Positions 2-15,975 of a DNA stretch of 25,486 bases are shown in pieces. The notes under the pieces were generated by a model, which ran no database searches, had not been told where the DNA came from, and saw only the letters and a list, made by a program, of their open reading frames with translations. The stretch comes from a virus. The DNA lies in IMG/VR virus record IMGVR_UViG_3300022848_000671, positions 1-25,486 of that record; one strand, 5' to 3'. Positions within the stretch are counted from its first letter, which is position 1; every line of letters starts with the position of its first letter. The position numbers and the translations under genes were made by a program.

Positions 2-2458
2 ACAGGAGGTAACTTTCTGTCTTCCATCCTCCATGCACAAGGAATTGCTACCCGGAACTCTTATCTTTCCTATCTTGTTCCAAGCCAAATCCCTAACGGA
101 TCTTTCGCCTCTATCGCATGGGGCGGGAGGGAAGTAACGGAAGGAGGACAAACCATACAAGAAGAGCTTGCTCGACTTCAACCGAACATCCTCCTTTGTC
201 TCGGGCCTGCCGCTCTTAACTATGCCAAGTTCGGACAGGCTCAACCTCCACGTATGCGCGGCAAAGCTCTCTCCTGGAAAGCGGATCTTCGTGGCTGGCG
301 TGGAAGCCTTTTTCACTCTCCTGTATTTAACTGTAAATGCATTTCAACCTATGACCCATTCTATGTCCTCCGAGATTATTCCACCTTTCCTCTTCTTCAG
401 TTCGATTTACAAAGAACAGTTACTGAAAGCCGACATCCTTCCTTATCGCTCCCTGTCCGGACAATCCATACATCCGCATCTGCTGACGAGTTGTGCTTCC
501 TTATGGATACCTGGGGTGCCGGGATCTACTGCTCTCTCGACATTGAAGGAGGATTACCTAAGTGGCTGGTCAATGCGAAAGCTCTCGCTAAACCGAAGGA
601 CAAAGATCGTCTCCGCTATGGCTGGCCCTGCGTTAGCCTCTCTCCTGACCCTTCGCGGGCATGGTCAATCGCTTGGGGAAGGTATACGGAAACGGATCAC
701 GTTCGTCTCCTTCGAGCTTTCGCCAAACTTATGTATCGCGATGACGTACCTAAAGTTTTGCAGAACCAATTATACGATAATTTCGTACTGTCCTTTGGAT
801 ACGGAATCCCTATCCGTAATGTAACCCAAGATACCATGATTAAAGGCTGGGCTGTGTATGCCGAGCTTCCCCGTGGACTATCCACTCAAGGCTCCATCTG
901 GACTCGTCAGCCCCACTGGAAAGACGATACCATGTATGGAACAGGGATCGACAACCTGGCTCACGGCTGCGGTATGGACTCCGCTGTTACTTTAGAAATT
1001 TGCCTTGCTCAAGACAACGCGCTTTCGCCGGAGTCGATGAAGCATTACAAGACCATTATCGACTTGCAGAACTGCTTTCTGTTCATGGAACTAAATGGCA
1101 TCAAGTATGACCAACCGGCAGTCACAACAAAACTCCGAGGTGTCCAAAAGAAGCTGGACAAACTGGGAGCATGGTTAGACAAACAAGCAAAAGGACCGCT
1201 CCGAGGACCAAAGGGTTCGCTCTCGTCGAAGAAACTTTGCGATTACCTTTATGCTTCCGGCGGCTACCCGAAACAGTTTGCCAAGGTCAATGGCAGGCTT
1301 ACAACTAAGCTTACTTCCGATAAAGATGCGCTGCTTAAACTAAAAAAACTCCATTCACATGACCCTTTTCTTACCAACATCCTACGCCACCGCCACCTTG
1401 AAGGAGTCCGCGAGACGTTGTCAATCGTCGCGGACTCTGATGGTCGGGTCCGTTGCGGGTATTCACTTGAAGCTGAGACAGGTAGAGTTAAATGTTACTC
1501 TTCTCCTACAGGCTCCGGAGCAAACTTACAAACCATCCAAAAAGACCTGCGCTTTTCCTATACTGCTGAGTCCGCTGGACATGACTTCGCCCAGTGCGAT
1601 CTTGAAGGGGCAGACGGATGGACAGTAGCCTGTCGTTGTAAAGCTCTTGGCGATCCGACTATGTTCGATGATTACAAAGCCGGGATGAAACCAGCGAAGA
1701 TCATTGCGTTATTGTATTACTTTGGTGAAGTCATTAACACGCTTTCTCGACCAGACTTGAAGTGGCTGCACGACAAAGTCTTCCCTCTTGTCCAAAAAGA
1801 AATCGGTAAATGGCTTTACCTTGGATGCAAACGAGTGCAGCACGGAACTAACTACCTAATGGGAATCCCAACAATGCAAATGAACGTCCTGATGGACTCC
1901 TATAAAGAATCCGGTGTGCCAGTATATCTTGCTTTCGGAGACGCTAAACGACTCCAACAACTCTATCTCGCCCGCTACCGTGGCGTAAGCTTTTGGCATA
2001 CATGGTCGTCTGCAATGCTAACTTCCAAAGGAGAACTACGGTCGGCTTCTGGCCACAACCGGGTGTTCTTCGGCCGTCGAACCGGAAAGGAACTTAACAC
2101 TACGCTAAAAGAATTCCTCGCGAATGAACCACAAAACAACACCACGTGGGCTACGTCTTTGGCGATGCTGAAATTGTGGAAAGATCCAGCCAACAGGATT
2201 AGCGGGGTTATCTTAATGAATGCTTATGATACTTGGGTAGCTACAATCCAACGGAAACCCGGCGGTCTTTTCATTGTCCCTGTTCACCAAGTGCATGATG
2301 CGCTCTGCGTAGTCTGGGAAAAACTCCGCCGAACCTGGGCCAAAAACAAGATGAAAGAATATTTTAACAATGAACTAATAATCGCCGGTATACCGGTAAC
2401 AATTCCGTTCGAAGGGAACTACGGTTCGTCTTGGGGGGAGCAGGAGGAAAGTATATGA
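2..2458 (+). CDS. UDG-like domain fused to family A DNA polymerase with 3'-5' exonuclease (5' end cut by window)
   Basis: This is the replicative DNA polymerase of the phage. The frame is open from base 2 with no stop, giving 818 visible residues; the first internal ATG (254) lies inside a domain, so the true start is left of the window. Residues 1-140 look like a family 4/5 uracil-DNA-glycosylase fold: a Gly-rich start, a strand reading LQPNILLCLGPAAL, an RG pair, and TYDPFYVLR where active enzymes have T-x-HP-x3-LR. The catalytic His position is Asp118. Exonuclease residues follow: D180 and E182 (LDIEG), D259 (LYDNF), D326 (MDSAVTLE). The polymerase part has motif A with D533 (CDLEGAD), the O-helix K610-Y618 (KRVQHGTNY), and motif C H765-D766 (QVHDAL). 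All catalytic carboxylates are present. The stop overlaps the next ATG (ATGA). The polymerase assignment is secure; the UDG-like assignment is by motif pattern. Confidence 0.93.
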   Translation, partial: TGGNFLSSILHAQGIATRNSYLSYLVPSQIPNGSFASIAWGGREVTEGGQTIQEELARLQPNILLCLGPAALNYAKFGQAQPPRMRGKALSWKADLRGWRGSLFHSPVFNCKCISTYDPFYVLRDYSTFPLLQFDLQRTVTESRHPSLSLPVRTIHTSASADELCFLMDTWGAGIYCSLDIEGGLPKWLVNAKALAKPKDKDRLRYGWPCVSLSPDPSRAWSIAWGRYTETDHVRLLRAFAKLMYRDDVPKVLQNQLYDNFVLSFGYGIPIRNVTQDTMIKGWAVYAELPRGLSTQGSIWTRQPHWKDDTMYGTGIDNLAHGCGMDSAVTLEICLAQDNALSPESMKHYKTIIDLQNCFLFMELNGIKYDQPAVTTKLRGVQKKLDKLGAWLDKQAKGPLRGPKGSLSSKKLCDYLYASGGYPKQFAKVNGRLTTKLTSDKDALLKLKKLHSHDPFLTNILRHRHLEGVRETLSIVADSDGRVRCGYSLEAETGRVKCYSSPTGSGANLQTIQKDLRFSYTAESAGHDFAQCDLEGADGWTVACRCKALGDPTMFDDYKAGMKPAKIIALLYYFGEVINTLSRPDLKWLHDKVFPLVQKEIGKWLYLGCKRVQHGTNYLMGIPTMQMNVLMDSYKESGVPVYLAFGDAKRLQQLYLARYRGVSFWHTWSSAMLTSKGELRSASGHNRVFFGRRTGKELNTTLKEFLANEPQNNTTWATSLAMLKLWKDPANRISGVILMNAYDTWVATIQRKPGGLFIVPVHQVHDALCVVWEKLRRTWAKNKMKEYFNNELIIAGIPVTIPFEGNYGSSWGEQEESI
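2441..2450 (+). promoter_or_regulatory. Shine-Dalgarno site for the 118-aa gene
   Basis: The purine run caggaggaaa ends four bases before the ATG at 2455. It is the clearest ribosome-binding site in the + strand operon, and it selects 2455 over the in-frame upstream codon at 2431, which would extend the protein backward across this site with a Gly-rich, non-protein-like leader. Confidence 0.75.
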
Positions 2459-3988: not shown

Positions 3989-4172
3989 CCCTGTCCTCTA
4001 CCCTAAGTTCTGGGATGGCAGCCAGCCTGACCAAAACTACACCGCTGTCTTAAAAGAAATCCGAGACAACAATGCGGTGATCGAAGTTTACCACAATGGC
4101 CTTCTTCGCACCGCAACCGTAACCCTATCTGACCTAAAGCCCAACCCAACTCCTAATGTCCTTTCTCCGTAA
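3975..4172 (+). CDS. Hypothetical 65-aa beta-rich protein
   Basis: This small protein of 65 residues starts MKPGDPVLYPKFW and reads like a single small beta barrel: VLYPKF, YTAVLKEIRD, NAVIEVYHNG, LRTATVTLSDL. That pattern is common in SH3-like or KOW-like phage proteins that bind nucleic acid or partners, but no specific family is recognised. The ATG at 3975 is preferred over a TTG six bases upstream. The gene overlaps its upstream neighbour by 14 bases and the ATPase gene by 17, so it is embedded in the coupled operon. Function unknown. Confidence 0.65.
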   Translation: MKPGDPVLYPKFWDGSQPDQNYTAVLKEIRDNNAVIEVYHNGLLRTATVTLSDLKPNPTPNVLSP

Positions 4173-5577
4173 CTATCTTTCCTACTCTACCGGAAACGAA
4201 TGCCCTGAAATGTTCCATGTTTGGGCTGGCTACGTCTGCCTGTCTGCAGCAGTTTCTAGACGTGTGTGGCTATCCTTCGGAGACGAAGTCATTTACCCTA
4301 ACATCTATGTCATGCTCGTCGGAGACGCAGGCAACGGCAAATCCATTGCGTTGCGTAAAGCCAAACGCGTTATCGCAGAACTTAACGATATTCCTATTTC
4401 CCGTTCTGTAGAAACACCAGAAGGTCTCTGGCGATTCATGGCCGGGGACTCTAGCAAGAATCCTCCTGTTCCTTCGCCAGTAGCGTTCCCTACAAAGTGG
4501 CCTGACGGCGAGATACGCGAAGTCCATCCAATGACAATCATCGCTAACGAATTCATTAACTTTATTAACCTTAACCAAGCAGGTTGGATCAACGCACTTA
4601 ATGACATTTACGACGAAGACTTTTATGAATACCGGACAAAAAATATGGGAGAAGATAACCTTATTGGACCCTACATTGTCCTCCTGTCCGCACTCACAAC
4701 GGAAGTTTCTTCTGATCTACAAAAAGCACGAATCATTGCGTCGGGTTTTGCCCGCAGAACTATCTGCCAGTTTGGAGAACGTCAGTGGAACAATCCCCAC
4801 AGCCAACCCGGCTTCGACGATGATCAGAAAGTCCAACGAGCTGCTGCAGTAGAATACGCTAAAGGTTTGCAGAAGTTGCACGGAGAAATTGCCGTTAGTG
4901 CCGAAGTCTGGGCATTCTGGAAAATTTGGTATGACGAACATTCCCACAACGTCCCCAAGCAAACTCCGCAGTTACGGTCCTGGTATACGAGCAAACCCCA
5001 TCAAGTCTTAAAGATTGCCATACTGACAATGCTTTCCGAATCCTACGACCTTGTGCTTCGCATTCCACATATTCAAATTGCTCTTGACTATTTAGAAATC
5101 ATGGAACAAGATCTTGCTAAAGTATTTGGCGGATTTGGACGGAACGAACTAGCCGCAGTAGCATCGAAGATTCTCGACTATCTACAAGGCCAATCCGAAC
5201 CATTGTCCAAAAAACGTGTGAAGACTCTCTTCTGGTCATCGTGCAAACCGCCCAATGACTTTGAAGAATGCTACCAGTTCTTGCTCCAATCTAAACAGAT
5301 TTCCTCTGCTTACTTGACGAACAGGACCAGCGGTATGCAGGACGAAATCACTGGTACGCCGGCAACGATGGTTGCGTTTGCCGCTTCCGTAGAGACTGCT
5401 CCGCAAGCTGACGTAGCTCCGACCGAGTTGCGTTCGGAAGCTCCGCCCGTAGCTGATCCATTAACACAGCAACCTGTGCCGACCTCCCCTGTGAGCGAGT
5501 TACCAATCCCAACTGAGCCTCAATCTGTCGTCGGAATTCCAGCCTTGCAGCTTCCGAAGCGTCTGACGGAAGGTTGA
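4156..5577 (+). CDS. P-loop ATPase, DUF3987-like replication helicase/primase-associated protein
   Basis: This is a 473-aa ATPase that probably acts with the polymerase at the replication fork. It has a clear Walker A (GDAGNGKS, residues 56-63), a Walker B-type strand TIIANEF with Glu132, and an arginine-rich segment FARRTICQFGER further on that could supply an arginine finger. The arrangement resembles DUF3987-type RecA/AAA-like proteins common in phage replication regions. A role in loading or unwinding is inferred from family and context, not shown. From about residue 398 the sequence becomes a Pro/Ala/Thr-rich tail with no domain character. That tail is encoded antisense to the end of the giant - strand gene, so its authenticity is uncertain. 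The start overlaps the upstream gene by 17 bases and has no good ribosome-binding site. Confidence 0.85.
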   Translation: MSFLRNYLSYSTGNECPEMFHVWAGYVCLSAAVSRRVWLSFGDEVIYPNIYVMLVGDAGNGKSIALRKAKRVIAELNDIPISRSVETPEGLWRFMAGDSSKNPPVPSPVAFPTKWPDGEIREVHPMTIIANEFINFINLNQAGWINALNDIYDEDFYEYRTKNMGEDNLIGPYIVLLSALTTEVSSDLQKARIIASGFARRTICQFGERQWNNPHSQPGFDDDQKVQRAAAVEYAKGLQKLHGEIAVSAEVWAFWKIWYDEHSHNVPKQTPQLRSWYTSKPHQVLKIAILTMLSESYDLVLRIPHIQIALDYLEIMEQDLAKVFGGFGRNELAAVASKILDYLQGQSEPLSKKRVKTLFWSSCKPPNDFEECYQFLLQSKQISSAYLTNRTSGMQDEITGTPATMVAFAASVETAPQADVAPTELRSEAPPVADPLTQQPVPTSPVSELPIPTEPQSVVGIPALQLPKRLTEG

Positions 5578-8500
5578 ACTTAGACAGGATGTCCTTACGG
5601 GCAGACGATCCTGAACGCCTCAAGTCCCGGAAGAACGCAAGCGACTCTGCTTGGCGTGCTATTGCTTGGATCTCACCTCTGACATCCAGTTCTGGATTCT
5701 CCTGTAACTGTGCTCGCAATGTCGCCTGCACATTTCCGAACTTGCCTTCAATAGCCAGTTGTGCTTGGTCCTGTCTAAACGTCGCCACCTTCTGATTCGC
5801 GACCTTGTCCGCTCTAACCGCAATTCTTTGCGCTGCGTTGAAGTCAGCCTTCCTCTTTGGTTGGAATCCTGCCAACATACCAAGTTGCTCACCCGGTGTC
5901 GGCTGAATCGTAGGATTGCCACGGCTGTCCATTAACGGTCCACCACCACTCTGCGTAAGTTCAAAAATCTTCTTAAACGCAGGAGGCATCAAATCCCGGA
6001 CACCAGAAGCATCCCCTTGTGCAAGTTTCGTCGCCCCTTTGAACAAGCCTGTGGCTACCGATAACGGCGCACCAATAAGCTGGTCTACTTGGAACCCGTT
6101 ATACTCGCTCACGCCGGGCAGTGTTCCCATGGACAGTCTGCTCTGCCAATCCCAACCAAGGAGTGAAGGCAAACCCGTAGTTGCTGCATCCGAGAACGTG
6201 TGTCCACTCTCTTCGTCTTCGCCAAAGAACTGTGCGAGAAGCTCCCGCAAGTTCTTGTTAAGTTGCAAGTTTGGAAAGAGCTTCTCCAGCAACGCAATCC
6301 CTCCTGCCATAAAGGGCATTCCGAGTGTGCCTGCCATAGCGAACTGGACTGCAAGCATTTGAACTGCAGCAACCTTAGCTGCGTATTTCTCATGCGGAGT
6401 AAATCCAGGAGGATTAAAGAACCCTTTGCCGATTAAGTGCGTTAGCTGGCCAATACTCCCGATAACGTAAGATTGCATACTATTCGCGATCATCGCTGTC
6501 GACTTGGAAAACGTATCCTGACCGGAGAATGCTCCAACCGACCGGTTCACCTTTCCTCCGACGTCATTCACTGCATGGTTAAACCTTTTGGCTTCTATAT
6601 ACGCTTGCTCTTTTGACATTCCCTGGTTACGGTGATGATCGAAAGCAACCAAAAGTGCAACACTATTGTTGAAATGCTCCACCTGCCGGAACATCCACAT
6701 ACTTCCAGTCTGCAATCCTCCAAGCAACGTGCTTGCATGATCTCCTGCGGTTTTCTTTCCCTGACCTGCAATATGTCGTTTAATGTTATTTGACAGAACC
6801 TCATTCGTCGCTTCTTCGACATCATAAATAGTCAGGCCGATTTCACCGTCGTGAGTCGCTTGCTGTCTTAACCATTCATGCTCTGCGGTGTTCCACTTGC
6901 CTGACATAACTTCCTTGCCTGCCGACGCTATCATCTTATACGACCGCAACGGGTTCGCTGTCAACGCTGTAAGCTGCCCGGCTCCACGAAGAAACATCTG
7001 CGTTCCGTTCGCCATGGCAGAAGCCACGTTTGCACCGAGAAGCCAATGCGTTGTAAAGCGCGTCGCCATCCGTGCAACTTTTGGATCTGGAGACAAGATG
7101 TTTTCCGCGTGTTGTTTAAGGTAGCTTTTGAGGTCAGGTCTGCTTTGCAACTCTGGGTCCATCAACACCAACCGCATTTCCGCCTGGTAAATTTGCCGCG
7201 CCCAGTAGGTAGAAGTCTTTCCAATCCACGAGAAGTGGTTCTTCAAGTAAGAAAGATCCTCCGCTCCTTTACGTAATGTTCTCGCTTTCGTAGGAACATC
7301 TACGATACCAGCTTGTTTTGCCACGACTGCAAACTGTTCCACGGCGGAAGTCTTTTGCATTGTCTCCAGAATCTCCGGTCCAAACTTGGCCACCATCATG
7401 TCCTGCATATTCTTATCATAGACCCGCATCTGTGCAATCCAACTCTCAGTCCCCGAACCGAAATGCGGAGCGAAGTCCATATTCGCCGTGACTTTTGTAA
7501 ACGACTGTAAGGTCGTGCCTGTCTGTTTCGCCCGCAACTCTGCTTCTGCTTTGCTGTCAAACTTGTCCATTTTGCCGTTTGCAAACGTGGCAGTATAATC
7601 TCCCATACGTTGTGCACTCGCCCATCCAGGATTGTCTCTCATGAACGTATCCCAATTCCTCCACTTAGCGGATTCGTTCGTAAGAACCTTGATAAGCGTC
7701 TGCAAGATTTCGGGCTTGACCTCCAATGAAAGTTGTTGCATTTTCTGGTTTGCCATCGCAGCCTTCTGTGGGTCGGAGAAATCTGTTAGCGCATACTCCA
7801 TTACCGCATCGGCAATTTCTACGTTTCGATTCAATTTGAATCCAGACGTATCCGCAATCAGTGCAGCGGCGTTGGAGACAGAGACTTTGCGCATACCGTC
7901 CAGAGTCACAAGGTTCATCTTCTGTTGAGAAAGCTCTTTCTGCACAGTAAGTTGCTGCACCGACTCCCGATCCCCTTTCGACAACCCTTTAAGTAACTCC
8001 TGTACTTGCGGACTTGTAATAGGCAGCGTGACAATCTTCCCTGTCTTCTGTCCCTCTTGTTGATTAGCGAAGATCCATCCGTCCACGGCGCGAACAACCC
8101 TCGGACTTCCTATGGTCTTAAACATCGTGTCTACGGCTTTGTCCGTTGGAACTCCTGCATCCAGGTCAATAGCAAAAGCGGCGTGACCAGCAAGTTGCAT
8201 ATGTCGGGAGTTAGTCATCAACTGATATCCCTTGTCCACACCTTCTGCAAGCAACGGATGGTTAAGAATCGCTTGTGCAGGTTTCATAATAAACTTCGCA
8301 AGCGATCCCATCTCTTCCTTGGTCCAGAACAAACTTGGTTTCGTCGAGTAAATCTCCGCCGCACCGACAGGATCCAAACCGGCAAGTCCTTGCATTTGTT
8401 CGTAAGCGATCTTCCCGTAAGCATTCGCCTGCATGATAGTATGCGTAGCATCCAACGCTTCAGCAATGCCAGACTTGAGTCCGTCCATACTTTCTACGTT

Positions 8501-11500
8501 AAGCCACTGCATCACCCCTTTGTCGTCGAAGGCATTCAACGCTTTGAGCATAACCGCAGCGTCATTAGCGCGTTCATACAACAACGGTTTCATCGCATCA
8601 GGCATGACATCCATCCAGTCTTTAATGTTCTTGCCGTCGCCTAGCAACATATCCTTAATAAATGTCTCGAAACCGGCAGGACTTTGTTCATATCCCGCTT
8701 CCTCCAAGGACCAATTAAAGAACTCTTTGTCCGGACCATTCTCCTCGTAAGCTTTCGTAACAAACTCTTGTGCCACGCGCATACCGGGAGTTACCTCTTT
8801 ATGTTCGAAAATGGTATTCAGAATGTCAGCCTTGCTTGCATCTTTGGCCGCGAGTAATCCAACTAATCTATCCGAATACCCTCTGGCAGAACCTGCATCC
8901 AAACCTTGTTTGCTAAAATAGTCCAGGCCAAAAGCTCGAACAGATGCTACGCTCTTAGTCGTATTCAAAACATTCGATGTGATGTTCATGACTTCGTCAA
9001 AAGCAGAGCCTTCTGTATTTTTGAATCCGAGAATGAACCCGACCCAGTTCTTAAACGCCTGCAAGCCGTTGTTTTTATCGACTTTGATTTTGGTCAGGAT
9101 ATCCCGAAACTCTTTAGAAGAGAACGTCTGCGAAACAAATTCATCCCCGTTCAACAAAGCATAAGCAGAATCAACCAAGTCCGTGTTGGTCGTCAACTCT
9201 GCCATGCCCGCTTCTTCTTTGGCGTAGCGTTCATACCAATTTGACTTCTCCGCTGCTTCGACAATGGCCCGGAGTTCAGGAGAAACTTTCCCTATAACCT
9301 CTTTGCGCAACATCTCCAACGCATTCCGATGCTCCGCTTTCGCAGGATTTGCCAGCTCGTGCAAGGTTAGCCCATGGAACAATTCGTGCACCATAATCGA
9401 CTGCCGCGAAAGCTCCGACATTTTGGAAAGGTTCTCCGCAAGGTTGATAATAACTCTCTTTCCGTCTGCCTGCACTGCAAACGACATTCCCGATTCCTCG
9501 TTCTTAGACCATTTGATTTCAATCAGGTCCAATGCTCCGTCCAGTTTCATGGCGTGCAAGTCGGCTGCCAGTTCCTGAATGACAGGATGTTCGGATTGTA
9601 GGAGATGCTCTAGTTGACTTTTGCCAGAATTGCCGACAGAGGATACCAACTTGACATCCTTTGGCGCAGTCGGAGTCCAGGGTTTTTCCGGCGAACGCGC
9701 TGCGACTGGACTCGGATTTTTAACTACATTATAAATTTCCTTTTGTAGGATTTCTATAGACGATTCACCTTGTGCTTTCTCATACCCTGCAACTTCATCA
9801 AACACTTTAGGACGCGAATCCAAACTTTCAAAATCAAGATTAGTTCGACTGAACCATTCACGAGTAGTTTCATTCGGTAACGGTTCAACATTCACCCTTT
9901 GACCAGAACCGTCATCCAAGTCGTCTGCTACAAGTTCACGTATTTTAGGCCAGTCCAAACCATGGGCTTTTAACAACTCCAAGACTTCGGTCGCTGGTTC
10001 AGTTTTTAGAAGTATTGTTACGCCTTCCGCTTCTACATCAATGCGCTGCAATCCGTACGGAGCTGATTCTTTTCCCCGTTTAATAAGCCGCCCAGTTATA
10101 CCAGCAGTAACCCGGCCCGGACTAGGACGAACCTGGCCATCTCCATACGCTCGGCCTTCGCTATCGTCTTGCCCGTCCTGCCAGCCGTACGTTTCGCCCT
10201 CTTCTTGTTTTTTGTTCATTTTCCGAACAACATCTTGCACAGCCTTCAACGTCCCTCCAGCTAAAGCCGCATCCAGTTCTTCGCGCATTCCTACTTGATC
10301 CGCGAGCATACGCAACTCCTCGAAATTTTCTTCTGTAGTTTGCTTGACGATCTCGTCCTTAGGCAGCGTAAATGTAATGTCACCTTTCTTACTTAACCCT
10401 TCTCCTTGCAGGATCGCAGAAACAAAGCTCGCTTTGAACGCCTCTCTTCCTTCATTAGTCGCGAGTTCACCATTCCTTAACGCAAAGTCCGCTTTCCGAT
10501 GGAACATACCTGAGTTAATAATCTTTTGGTAATTCGAGTTCCCATCTCCGCCAAGTTCGAGGAATGTATTCTGCAAGTCAAGAAGAAACTTGTGTTCCTC
10601 CTGCTGTAAATGAGTGGGGTCTCGACTATTGACTTCATTCTCTCCCATGAACTGCATTGCATCTTCGAACGTACTTTGTTCCTGCTCTGCTTTGGTTACT
10701 TCCTTTCGTGTTTCATTGATCAAACTCTGTACGGCTTCCTTATCCGTCGGAGCTTCCAGGCTTGCAGACTCGGCATCTAGCCACTTCCGTCTTTCAGCAA
10801 CGGCCGCATTATCCAAAGGTGCCATTCCATAATGTTCACGTAGCGCATTTATCTTGAAGATGCCAGCCTCAAACTGTTCTGGAGTCATCGCCGTAGCAAT
10901 TTCCTTTTCCACTCCGTCGAGGATTTCCTTGCCCGATTTGATTTGCTCTGTCCGCTGTGCGTCTTTCGACTGCACAGGTAACTCTTGGAAGTTATCCGGA
11001 CTTTTTTCTTTCTTTACTTTATACAGCGGGTTATCCGACATTCTTACCGCAGCATCACGAGGGACAAAGAAATTCGTCTGTCCAGCTTCCCGATTTGACC
11101 CTGGCTCGCTCCCCGTAGGAAAGCCGACTAAGTCTCCAACTTCAATCTTTGTCCCGTCGGAATACCGCAAATCCTGTCCGCGAAGGTCTTTTACTTCGAC
11201 AATACGGAACGTCCCGTTTTTGTTTGTTCCGTGTTCTGTTCCGAAAACATCGAACTGTTTGCTATTCTTATGCACGAATGCTCCGCCGACAACATTTTTG
11301 CCTCCAGTCGCAACATTTAAGTCTTGCATCCGTTGATATTCTTCATCCGCTTGGCGATTGGCTTCTTCTAACGAAACGCCTTCGCCCTTAGACTCCGTGC
11401 GAGTTCTCCGCTGACCACGAAGCTCTTCCAAACTAGATGCAAGATCCACTGTTATTGTTTCCAAAGGCACTGTGCCGGGAGTGTTCTCCGCAACCTTACG

Positions 11501-12391
11501 CTTCTCTGCGCCGAGTTTGAGAGCTAGTTCTGTCTTAGCAATAATTGCCTTTGTATCCAAGAACTCCTTTTTCGACGTCCGTCCTCCAAACTCAGCCCGA
11601 CCAGTTTTCGTCAGCATTAGTCCCGCGAACGGAAGCTGGCCAAGAGTCATGTCTAACGCGGCTGTAATTGGATCGAAGTGATACTCCGAGTTCGGGTCCA
11701 CCGCAGACTGTGCCATTGCTCCAACTTCACCAAAGATACTTGCTCCAACTTCACCAGCACCCAGAGACACGGCACCTTGTGTTCTAGTAAGCGGCATAAT
11801 CCGATTAGCGATAGCGGGATTGACGGCTTCGCCCATGACTGCACTAAGTCTGCCCGCAGGGTTCAGCATTGGACCAGCTAACTTGCCCGCGCTGTCTCCA
11901 AACATTCCCAACGCTGTTCTCAGGCTCTTTTGGTAAACCGCGGGCATGGCAGCGTTCGTTGCACCGGCAACTACACCTACAGCAGGGGAGCCAGTTTCCG
12001 TATATGCTCCTGCACCACTAAGTGCGGCTGTGCCTGCAAGTCTGGCAGCAGTAAATCCTGCACCAGCACCAGGAATAAACAACGGAGCAAAATCCACAAA
12101 CATCCGCGGCAAGCTCCGACCGATGTTTGCTCCTTCCTCCGGTCGACCAACGGCCGTTCCTACCGATCGTCCAAAGCCCTCTCCTATGTCCGGAAGTCCG
12201 GTCCATTCCAACGCGCGATCTATTCCCGTCGACGCCTGTTTAATCCAGTTGTCGTTAACACCCGCATCAAACGAGTTGTTCCCGCGTTTCCGGTTTTGCA
12301 TTGTCGACCAGTCAGACAGGGATTCCTGCACAACGCCAGCGCTTTTCAGCGTGTCGTATAGATCGGAGACTTGACGATAAGAGAGGGCCAT
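5348..12391 (-). CDS. Giant 2347-aa polyvalent/ejected virion protein with HExxH metallopeptidase motif
   Basis: This uninterrupted gene takes over a quarter of the window. Residues 98-152 are Gly/Ala-rich and hydrophobic. H1002-E1003-x2-H1006 (VHELFHG) is a zincin motif, with a plausible third ligand at E1084 (GDEFVSQTF), about 80 residues later as in many gluzincin-like phage domains. Another hydrophobic stretch lies near 2003-2035. It is followed by a region with LPSLLGWDW and TPGEQLGMLAGF signatures typical of large polyvalent protein-associated C-terminal domains (LPD38-like). The last 200 residues are charged and helical. It closes the virion operon after two Gln-rich proteins, the position where podoviruses keep internal proteins ejected into the host. 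The role is inferred: membrane transit plus a protease acting in the host or on virion parts. The start ATG lacks a Shine-Dalgarno site. Its 3' end overlaps the converging ATPase gene by 230 bases. Confidence 0.88.
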   Translation of the reverse strand: MALSYRQVSDLYDTLKSAGVVQESLSDWSTMQNRKRGNNSFDAGVNDNWIKQASTGIDRALEWTGLPDIGEGFGRSVGTAVGRPEEGANIGRSLPRMFVDFAPLFIPGAGAGFTAARLAGTAALSGAGAYTETGSPAVGVVAGATNAAMPAVYQKSLRTALGMFGDSAGKLAGPMLNPAGRLSAVMGEAVNPAIANRIMPLTRTQGAVSLGAGEVGASIFGEVGAMAQSAVDPNSEYHFDPITAALDMTLGQLPFAGLMLTKTGRAEFGGRTSKKEFLDTKAIIAKTELALKLGAEKRKVAENTPGTVPLETITVDLASSLEELRGQRRTRTESKGEGVSLEEANRQADEEYQRMQDLNVATGGKNVVGGAFVHKNSKQFDVFGTEHGTNKNGTFRIVEVKDLRGQDLRYSDGTKIEVGDLVGFPTGSEPGSNREAGQTNFFVPRDAAVRMSDNPLYKVKKEKSPDNFQELPVQSKDAQRTEQIKSGKEILDGVEKEIATAMTPEQFEAGIFKINALREHYGMAPLDNAAVAERRKWLDAESASLEAPTDKEAVQSLINETRKEVTKAEQEQSTFEDAMQFMGENEVNSRDPTHLQQEEHKFLLDLQNTFLELGGDGNSNYQKIINSGMFHRKADFALRNGELATNEGREAFKASFVSAILQGEGLSKKGDITFTLPKDEIVKQTTEENFEELRMLADQVGMREELDAALAGGTLKAVQDVVRKMNKKQEEGETYGWQDGQDDSEGRAYGDGQVRPSPGRVTAGITGRLIKRGKESAPYGLQRIDVEAEGVTILLKTEPATEVLELLKAHGLDWPKIRELVADDLDDGSGQRVNVEPLPNETTREWFSRTNLDFESLDSRPKVFDEVAGYEKAQGESSIEILQKEIYNVVKNPSPVAARSPEKPWTPTAPKDVKLVSSVGNSGKSQLEHLLQSEHPVIQELAADLHAMKLDGALDLIEIKWSKNEESGMSFAVQADGKRVIINLAENLSKMSELSRQSIMVHELFHGLTLHELANPAKAEHRNALEMLRKEVIGKVSPELRAIVEAAEKSNWYERYAKEEAGMAELTTNTDLVDSAYALLNGDEFVSQTFSSKEFRDILTKIKVDKNNGLQAFKNWVGFILGFKNTEGSAFDEVMNITSNVLNTTKSVASVRAFGLDYFSKQGLDAGSARGYSDRLVGLLAAKDASKADILNTIFEHKEVTPGMRVAQEFVTKAYEENGPDKEFFNWSLEEAGYEQSPAGFETFIKDMLLGDGKNIKDWMDVMPDAMKPLLYERANDAAVMLKALNAFDDKGVMQWLNVESMDGLKSGIAEALDATHTIMQANAYGKIAYEQMQGLAGLDPVGAAEIYSTKPSLFWTKEEMGSLAKFIMKPAQAILNHPLLAEGVDKGYQLMTNSRHMQLAGHAAFAIDLDAGVPTDKAVDTMFKTIGSPRVVRAVDGWIFANQQEGQKTGKIVTLPITSPQVQELLKGLSKGDRESVQQLTVQKELSQQKMNLVTLDGMRKVSVSNAAALIADTSGFKLNRNVEIADAVMEYALTDFSDPQKAAMANQKMQQLSLEVKPEILQTLIKVLTNESAKWRNWDTFMRDNPGWASAQRMGDYTATFANGKMDKFDSKAEAELRAKQTGTTLQSFTKVTANMDFAPHFGSGTESWIAQMRVYDKNMQDMMVAKFGPEILETMQKTSAVEQFAVVAKQAGIVDVPTKARTLRKGAEDLSYLKNHFSWIGKTSTYWARQIYQAEMRLVLMDPELQSRPDLKSYLKQHAENILSPDPKVARMATRFTTHWLLGANVASAMANGTQMFLRGAGQLTALTANPLRSYKMIASAGKEVMSGKWNTAEHEWLRQQATHDGEIGLTIYDVEEATNEVLSNNIKRHIAGQGKKTAGDHASTLLGGLQTGSMWMFRQVEHFNNSVALLVAFDHHRNQGMSKEQAYIEAKRFNHAVNDVGGKVNRSVGAFSGQDTFSKSTAMIANSMQSYVIGSIGQLTHLIGKGFFNPPGFTPHEKYAAKVAAVQMLAVQFAMAGTLGMPFMAGGIALLEKLFPNLQLNKNLRELLAQFFGEDEESGHTFSDAATTGLPSLLGWDWQSRLSMGTLPGVSEYNGFQVDQLIGAPLSVATGLFKGATKLAQGDASGVRDLMPPAFKKIFELTQSGGGPLMDSRGNPTIQPTPGEQLGMLAGFQPKRKADFNAAQRIAVRADKVANQKVATFRQDQAQLAIEGKFGNVQATLRAQLQENPELDVRGEIQAIARQAESLAFFRDLRRSGSSARKDILSKFNLPSDASEAARLEFRRQIEAQLGLVTRSQGRSAQVAVLMDQLRAELPNATRSELRQLAEQSLRKRQTQPSLPAYQ

Positions 12392-15486: not shown

Positions 15487-15975
15487 TTATGTAAAAGTAA
15501 TTTCAATCGCTCCATCCACGCAAGTTGCGGTTGCAGAAGTTGGTGTTGTGCCATCGGTCCCGTTTGATCCATTGGTCCCGTTTGTGCCATCGGTCCCGTC
15601 GATTCCGGCAGTACCAGCTTCCCCGTCTTCCCCGGTCTCTCCTTTAGGCAAACCTAAATCTAAATACCATTTGTTATTTTCAAACCGAAGCTCCGCGGTT
15701 GCAGGTTCTTCAGCATCTAATGTAGTCACATCACCGACTTCAAACTCAGGTGGTTGCGACGTAAGCAAGGGACCTGCTTTCTGCGCAGCGGCTTTAGGCT
15801 CACTCATCAACAAACTCGGCTCAGTCTTCCGAACAATTTTCGTTGCCCTTTCTCTCCGTGCGATGGTCGCCGTGACTTTCCTTGGCTCTGGTGGTTTTTC
15901 CCGATCCCACCCCCATGAGTCTTTAATGCTTGTCGCAGTATCTCTGCTCGCACTTGGTAATCCTTTCTCACCCAT
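15487..15975 (-). CDS. Collagen-like tail/fibre-associated protein, 162 aa
   Basis: Residues 112-144 are eleven consecutive Gly-X-Y triplets (GET GED GEA GTA GID GTD and so on), a collagen-like triple-helix segment. They are preceded by NNKWYLDLGLPKG, a short strand plus LPxG entry that often introduces collagen segments in phage tail proteins. The N-terminal 75 residues are basic and Pro-rich. The C-terminus (ATCVDGAIEITF) is a short beta segment with one cysteine. A trimeric fibre, spike or bridging role is the likely function, from the family habit of phage collagen-like repeats. The start overlaps the upstream structural gene by eight bases. It is unusually short for a complete fibre, so it may pair with the following Cys-rich protein. 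Confidence 0.8.
   Translation of the reverse strand: MGEKGLPSASRDTATSIKDSWGWDREKPPEPRKVTATIARRERATKIVRKTEPSLLMSEPKAAAQKAGPLLTSQPPEFEVGDVTTLDAEEPATAELRFENNKWYLDLGLPKGETGEDGEAGTAGIDGTDGTNGTNGSNGTDGTTPTSATATCVDGAIEITFT
15548..15601 (-). repeat. Three imperfect 18-bp tandem repeats in collagen-like segment
   Basis: Units at 15548-15565, 15566-15583 and 15584-15601 share the core ggtcccgt on the + strand. They encode Gly-Thr-Asn/Asp-Gly-Ser/Thr-Asn type triplets. They are the DNA counterpart of the Gly-X-Y repeat and a likely place for copy-number change. Confidence 0.8.

Follow-up and report, generated by a model that had tools for sequence, protein, structure and literature searches.

The fusion of a uracil-DNA glycosylase (UDG) domain to a family A DNA polymerase (PolA) is a known arrangement, and it has so far been read as built-in repair. 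In Bacillus phage SPO1, gp31 carries a UDG-like domain directly ahead of the exonuclease of a family A polymerase, with the His-Pro pair of motif II retained (IHPN) and Ser in place of the uracil-reading Asn, and there are PDB entries of stand-alone UDGs that are titled 'Phage SPO1 DNA polymerase-related protein'. The Pseudomonas jumbo phage PaBG has an unusual DNA polymerase I with a UDG domain; this protein, gp205, and its counterparts in the 'Lupandier' phages, which are large myophages, combine an N-terminal UDG, a 3'-5' exonuclease and a polymerase, and the available part of the report on them presents the UDG as a repair domain and makes no mention of its inactivation (PMC7412058). The polymerase of Thermus phage phiLo (PDB 9qhs; 1175 aa) is a UDG-PolA fusion of solved structure, to which the match is full-length, and it has E, N, S and H at the four pocket positions, so that the catalytic His is kept. 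Further examples are found in relatives of SPO1, Mel-JY34, a Vibrio phage, a Desulfofustis phage and Serbin, among others; in Kuura the UDG-exonuclease is a separate protein.

Among UDGs of solved structure, family 4, represented by Tth UDGa (1ui0), is the closest to the fused domains. In this enzyme, N80 reads the uracil, N89 positions the water and H155 stabilizes the leaving base; replacement H155S lowers k2 from 2.3e-1 to 7.2e-5 per s with Km barely altered, and N80A lowers k2/Km about 40-fold (PMC5387724). As H155S kills the chemistry and spares binding, the first step of a conversion to a non-cutting domain is biochemically easy. A UDG fold in the service of a viral replicase is known from vaccinia virus, in which D4 is needed for processive synthesis and its glycosylase activity is dispensable (PMC3946371); D4 binds undamaged DNA as well as damaged DNA and slides for about 4200 steps (PMC10253040).

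The window analysed here is a linear virus fragment of 25,486 bp (IMG/VR record) from a podophage-like virus. Besides the polymerase, it encodes SU10-type major capsid and portal proteins, a terminase, an ATP-dependent DNA ligase and a DUF3987 primase-like protein.

Methods

Related polymerases were sought by a scan of IMG/VR with a two-sequence alignment, which gave 80 loci, and the comparison set comprised 83 distinct fused UDG domains, mostly from IMG/VR. Tth UDGa (1ui0) served as the reference enzyme and its numbering is used for the pocket. No relative turned up in IMG/VR when single proteins (the window polymerase, its UDG domain or the DUF3987 protein) were used as queries; the nearest kin (loci L111-L115) were reached through a DNA pattern that encodes HGTNYLMG-I, a motif of the polymerase.

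Results

The polymerase frame (positions 2-2458) is open over 818 codons and has lost its 5' end at the left edge of the contig. Its product is a UDG fold, an exonuclease and PolA in one chain, and thus a fusion of the SPO1/PaBG/phiLo type (Table 1). That a UDG-like domain heads a phage polymerase, as the original prediction held, was confirmed by the kind of profile search that it had itself proposed as a check of the fold: residues 1-149 match the Pfam UDG family PF03167 at 29.1 bits (E 1.2e-6; curated cut-off 24.3), near relatives scoring 49.6-87.1 bits, and a profile made from the 83 other fused domains, with the window excluded, gives the window 55.7 bits and the best scored shuffle (n=1073) 2.8. 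With the window included, the fused-domain profile matches the solved family 4 UDG 1ui0 at 3e-51. It is on this profile evidence that a UDG fold is assigned to residues 1 to ~143. The motifs expected ahead of the exonuclease, namely LQPNILLCLGPAAL, RG and T-x-DP-x3-LR, were all located in the frame, the last of these as T-Y-D-P-F-Y-V-L-R (residues 116-124). UDG motif I and the first strand, both carried by near relatives, are missing because the contig starts there.

The remainder of the chain is, by motifs A, B and C and by its PolA fold, a family A DNA polymerase with exonuclease, and in this respect too the proposed fusion is upheld by the exonuclease and PolA domains, their catalytic residues and the fold matches. 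An AlphaFold2 model, built on an alignment of 37 relatives, superposes from residue 151 onwards on Klenow and Pol theta (Z 28-30); the matches listed in structure searches with the models of the window and of an intact relative (L091) cover the exonuclease-polymerase part only. D533, K610 and D766 align with the polymerase catalytic columns of relatives, and the match to PHROG 17 reaches 98 bits; the single-sequence score for Pfam DNA_pol_A (26.2) falls below the cut-off of 34.3 because the window sequence is very divergent.

Table 1. Features of the polymerase gene and of its downstream neighbours in the window
Feature	Position (nt)	Strand	Basis
UDG-fold domain, residues 1 to ~143, 5'-truncated	2..430	+	PF03167 residues 3-128; relatives' profile; alignments; AlphaFold2 models (window, intact relative L091)
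Y24, replaces uracil-reading Asn (Tth UDGa N80)	71..73	+	Ungapped between anchors G14-I15 and W40 in comparison with L111 and L114
G33, replaces water-positioning Asn (N89)	98..100	+	Alignment; same ungapped stretch between conserved anchors
LQPNILLCLGPAAL, core strand and helix motif, residues 59-72, conserved scaffold	176..217	+	G68 in 98-100% of relatives
R100-G101, RG motif	299..304	+	Sequence and relatives' alignment
D118-P119, motif II, Asp replaces catalytic His (H155)	353..358	+	Codons gac cca
3'-5' exonuclease domain, D180/E182/D259/D326 kept	452..901	+	Invariant or near-invariant alignment columns; Klenow/Pol theta fold matches from residue ~151
Family A polymerase domain	947..2455	+	Profile, alignment and fold matches; model pLDDT 84.5, pTM 0.83
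Polymerase motif A, D533	1598-1600	+	Aligned with relatives
Polymerase motif B, K610-HGTNY	1829-1855	+	Aligned with relatives
Polymerase motif C, H765-D766	2294-2299	+	Aligned with relatives
ATP-dependent DNA ligase, kept downstream in L111-L115	2808..3680	+	Pfam PF01068, 45.1 bits; tblastn 49-54%
DUF3987 primase/helicase-like protein, a replication neighbour conserved throughout the clade	4156..5577	+	Pfam PF13148, PHROG 14296

The window domain shares the fold and motif order of Tth UDGa but lacks its catalytic His, N80 and N89, and likewise its iron-sulphur cysteines at the positions tested. The change of the catalytic HP pair to DP, read in the original prediction, stands, and to it are added the replacements of both pocket Asn residues (Table 1). 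The third and fourth 4Fe-4S cysteine positions are occupied by S28 and G48; the first two lie beyond the contig, and in L111 and L114 no CxxC was seen. Despite the changed uracil pocket, exonuclease residues D180, E182, D259 and D326 and polymerase residues D533 and D766 are retained. It is well supported that excision has been lost from this UDG domain, whose activity would, on the residues present, be absent or reduced by orders of magnitude.

The five kin polymerases are about 46-57% identical to that of the window, and both states of the pocket are found among them. In L111 and L114 it is intact (GEAPG, GN, PP-x-N and HP), with motif I of the form GE-x-PG (E41, G42), and in L112, L113 and L115 it reads GDSPD, GH and LP, the His having become Leu. 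The tree joins the window polymerase, which sits on a long branch, with L114 (97/94); since this partner is intact, the loss of His in the window would be separate from that in L112, L113 and L115, if the intact state is ancestral. Identity between the window and L114 is 40% in the UDG domain and 53% in the rest of the protein, compared with 56 and 58% for the two intact relatives L111 and L114, and 46 and 57% for L113 and L114. For the pair L113 and L115, dN/dS is 0.14 in the UDG domain and 0.07 in the rest. The decayed UDG domain is thus constrained, yet looser than the polymerase. Synonymous sites of the window are saturated in comparison with every relative found, and all dN/dS figures come from relatives.

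The loss of the catalytic His extends well beyond this group. Among the 83 fused domains it is present in 51 and lost from 32, where it is replaced by S (16/32, reading SP), N, T, A, G, P or D; in a control set of free-standing family 4 UDGs (n=80), which is taxonomically narrow, it is kept in 79. On the exonuclease-polymerase tree, strongly supported branches force at least seven changes at this position, and parsimony gives 11. The two Asn residues follow a similar course, with N80 retained in 40/51 His-bearing and 7/32 His-less fused domains and N89 in 42/51 and 8/32, respectively. An independent-pair test (n=7) for coupled loss of N80 and His gave 4.0 pairs changing in the same direction versus 0.1 in opposite directions (sign test, median p 0.125), which is suggestive only. 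By contrast with these pocket residues, the scaffold residues G68, P61, R100 and D135 are as conserved in His-less as in His-bearing domains, and E41 (or D) and F54 of the pocket are mostly retained in His-less relatives; three of these (L017, L020 and L085) have an ENNS pocket, in which both N80 and N89 are kept. In the UDG domain, closely related His-less pairs give dN/dS of 0.03-0.11; the His-less domains are thus under purifying selection, which indicates that the fold has a use independent of excision.

The ligase and DUF3987 genes come after the polymerase gene in all five kin loci. In the three of these whose upstream genes were scanned (L111, L114 and L115), a PD-(D/E)XK nuclease, an AAA ATPase and a DNA methylase are encoded ahead of it, the methylase of L114 and L115 carrying a ParB_N domain. 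Neither among these upstream genes nor in the scanned polymerase neighbourhoods of 61 relatives was a gene found for thymidylate synthase, hydroxymethylase, dUTPase or dCMP deaminase, and a hydroxymethyluracil link for the window's clade was rejected for this reason. As the original prediction stated, the polymerase of SPO1, a hydroxymethyluracil phage, has a UDG-like front domain; the HP pair is still present in gp31. SPO1 differs from the window in that a dUMP hydroxymethylase gene adjoins the polymerase gene, whereas none was found near the polymerases of the window's clade; the window has also lost all three of His, N80 and N89. A base-excision cassette, with UDG, polymerase and ligase in one operon, was likewise set aside, as the window UDG is degenerate and no AP endonuclease was found among the proteins scanned.

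Discussion

We lean towards the view that the UDG module of this replicative polymerase no longer excises bases and has been retained, probably, to hold or scan DNA in the manner of vaccinia D4; on the same reading, the protein is taken to be a phage replicative polymerase with the UDG-exonuclease-PolA arrangement. A family-4-like UDG placed directly before the proofreading exonuclease has lost N80 (to Y), N89 (to G) and H155 (to D) from its pocket, and it would now grip or scan DNA without cutting it, so that the polymerase stays on its template, much as with D4 in the vaccinia holoenzyme. Loss of excision would also remove a hazard, since the polymerase itself would be blocked by any abasic sites that excision left at the fork. 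The comparison with D4 is one of working and not of descent: in both cases a UDG fold would serve a viral replicase with excision dispensable, but D4, a family 1 UNG that is still catalytically active, is a protein apart from its family B polymerase, to which A20 connects it. That the window domain may hold DNA, a role that the original prediction had also offered, is plausible. The net charge of the fused domains is only weakly positive (median +1 in His-less and +2 in His-bearing domains) and so lends no special support to DNA holding. That the pocket has decayed many times in related viruses with the domain kept suggests a service to replication rather than to repair. Whether this amounts, over a broad group of small phages, to repeated conversion of the PolA-fused UDG into a DNA-scanning grip, a counterpart of D4 that would have been reached independently, is a wider proposal that we make tentatively and with distinctly less confidence.

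The main rival to a DNA grip, which we regard as unlikely, is that the dead UDG is a structural remnant that only packs on the exonuclease and keeps the protein folded, doing nothing to DNA. The direct fusion of the UDG to the exonuclease is in keeping with this, as are the retention of scaffold residues with loss of pocket residues and the higher rate at which the UDG domain evolves after its active site has gone; that the domain outpaces the rest of the protein in the window and in L113 and L115 also fits slow decay. However, the dN/dS of 0.03-0.11 in His-less lineages is strict for a packing remnant, the pocket residues E41 (or D) and F54 are mostly retained in His-less relatives, and phages of other groups, e.g. 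T7, replicate with a PolA that has no UDG domain.

Archaeal family B polymerases have a uracil read-ahead pocket, and a UDG pocket that takes in uracil or a modified base uncut, and then stalls or reports, would make the domain a template sensor. We consider this improbable. Although the unaltered Km of Tth UDGa H155S for uracil-DNA, with k2 lost (PMC5387724), and the ENNS pockets of L017, L020 and L085 are compatible with such a sensor, N80 is gone from the window and from most His-less domains, which makes base sensing less likely for the window in particular. The original prediction had entertained sensing of uracil or modified bases; for uracil and hydroxymethyluracil this is therefore not supported, the more so as no genes for hydroxymethyluracil or uracil-DNA were found near the polymerases of the clade.

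More improbable again is a domain that is still a glycosylase, in which Asp118 or another residue does the chemistry or the target is a different base. Asp is an acid, motif I lies beyond the window's contig, and family 2 UDG enzymes work with Asn or Met at the position of the motif II His. Against this, many different residues have taken the place of His (S, N, T, A, G, P, L and D) rather than a single new one, N80 and N89 tend to go with the His, and H155S costs more than three orders of magnitude in k2 (PMC5387724). Finally, the original prediction had allowed that an active HP in close relatives would point to a misread residue, and although L114, the closest by tree, does have an intact HP and gac is one base from a His codon, a sequencing or assembly error hiding an ordinary active UDG is very improbable, because Y24 and G33 are also changed, the whole domain has diverged faster, the 818-codon frame is intact and His has been lost independently in many relatives.

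The UDG-PolA fusion itself is already known; the novelty lies in the pattern of repeated His loss, which is undescribed as far as the open-access literature shows, where no account was found of a phage polymerase whose UDG domain is inactive. If excision has been lost repeatedly, in about a third of the fusions and under selection, then repair is not the general reason for the fusion, and these polymerases would be a natural set in which to ask what use the UDG fold is to a replicase. Natural pairs that differ in the state of the pocket, L114 and the window on the one hand and L111 and L113 or L115 on the other, allow direct testing.

Additional observations

In nine SPO1-like and Serbin/Almagne-like loci (L010, L093, L095, L097, L098 and L100-L103), the N80 position holds S, G, A or P in 9/9 and His is kept in 8/9, and in most of them genes for thymidylate synthase or dUMP hydroxymethylase adjoin the polymerase gene; L009 has such genes yet keeps Asn at N80. 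Replacement of N80 in these fusions may be another way of sparing the phage's own modified DNA.

In exonuclease motif III (YxxxD, at about residues 318-326, nt 953-979), the Tyr has apparently given way to Gly or Cys, both in the window and in its close kin, and it is likewise apparently replaced in L106; the Asp stays in each case. The polymerase is a single frame in the window, L111 and L114, and comes as two frames, with an overlap of about 40 nt, in L112 (4421-7055), L113 (7932-10566) and L115 (7875-10545), the split falling just before motif A and the second frame having its own ATG. Split polymerases also occur in Kuura (L002), the Vibrio phage (L005), MW202554 (L008) and Goe26 (L100).

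On the reverse strand of the window, a giant gene (5348-12391) encodes a protein of 2347 aa that matched nothing in Pfam or PHROG and has a HELFH metallopeptidase-like motif; it overlaps the forward-strand DUF3987 gene tail-to-tail by 230 nt (5348-5577), and several relatives also have a giant reverse-strand gene behind the replication genes. A further reverse-strand frame (15487-15975) contains collagen-like G-x-y repeats (GEDGEAGTAGIDGTDGTNGTNG) and probably encodes a fibre-type protein.
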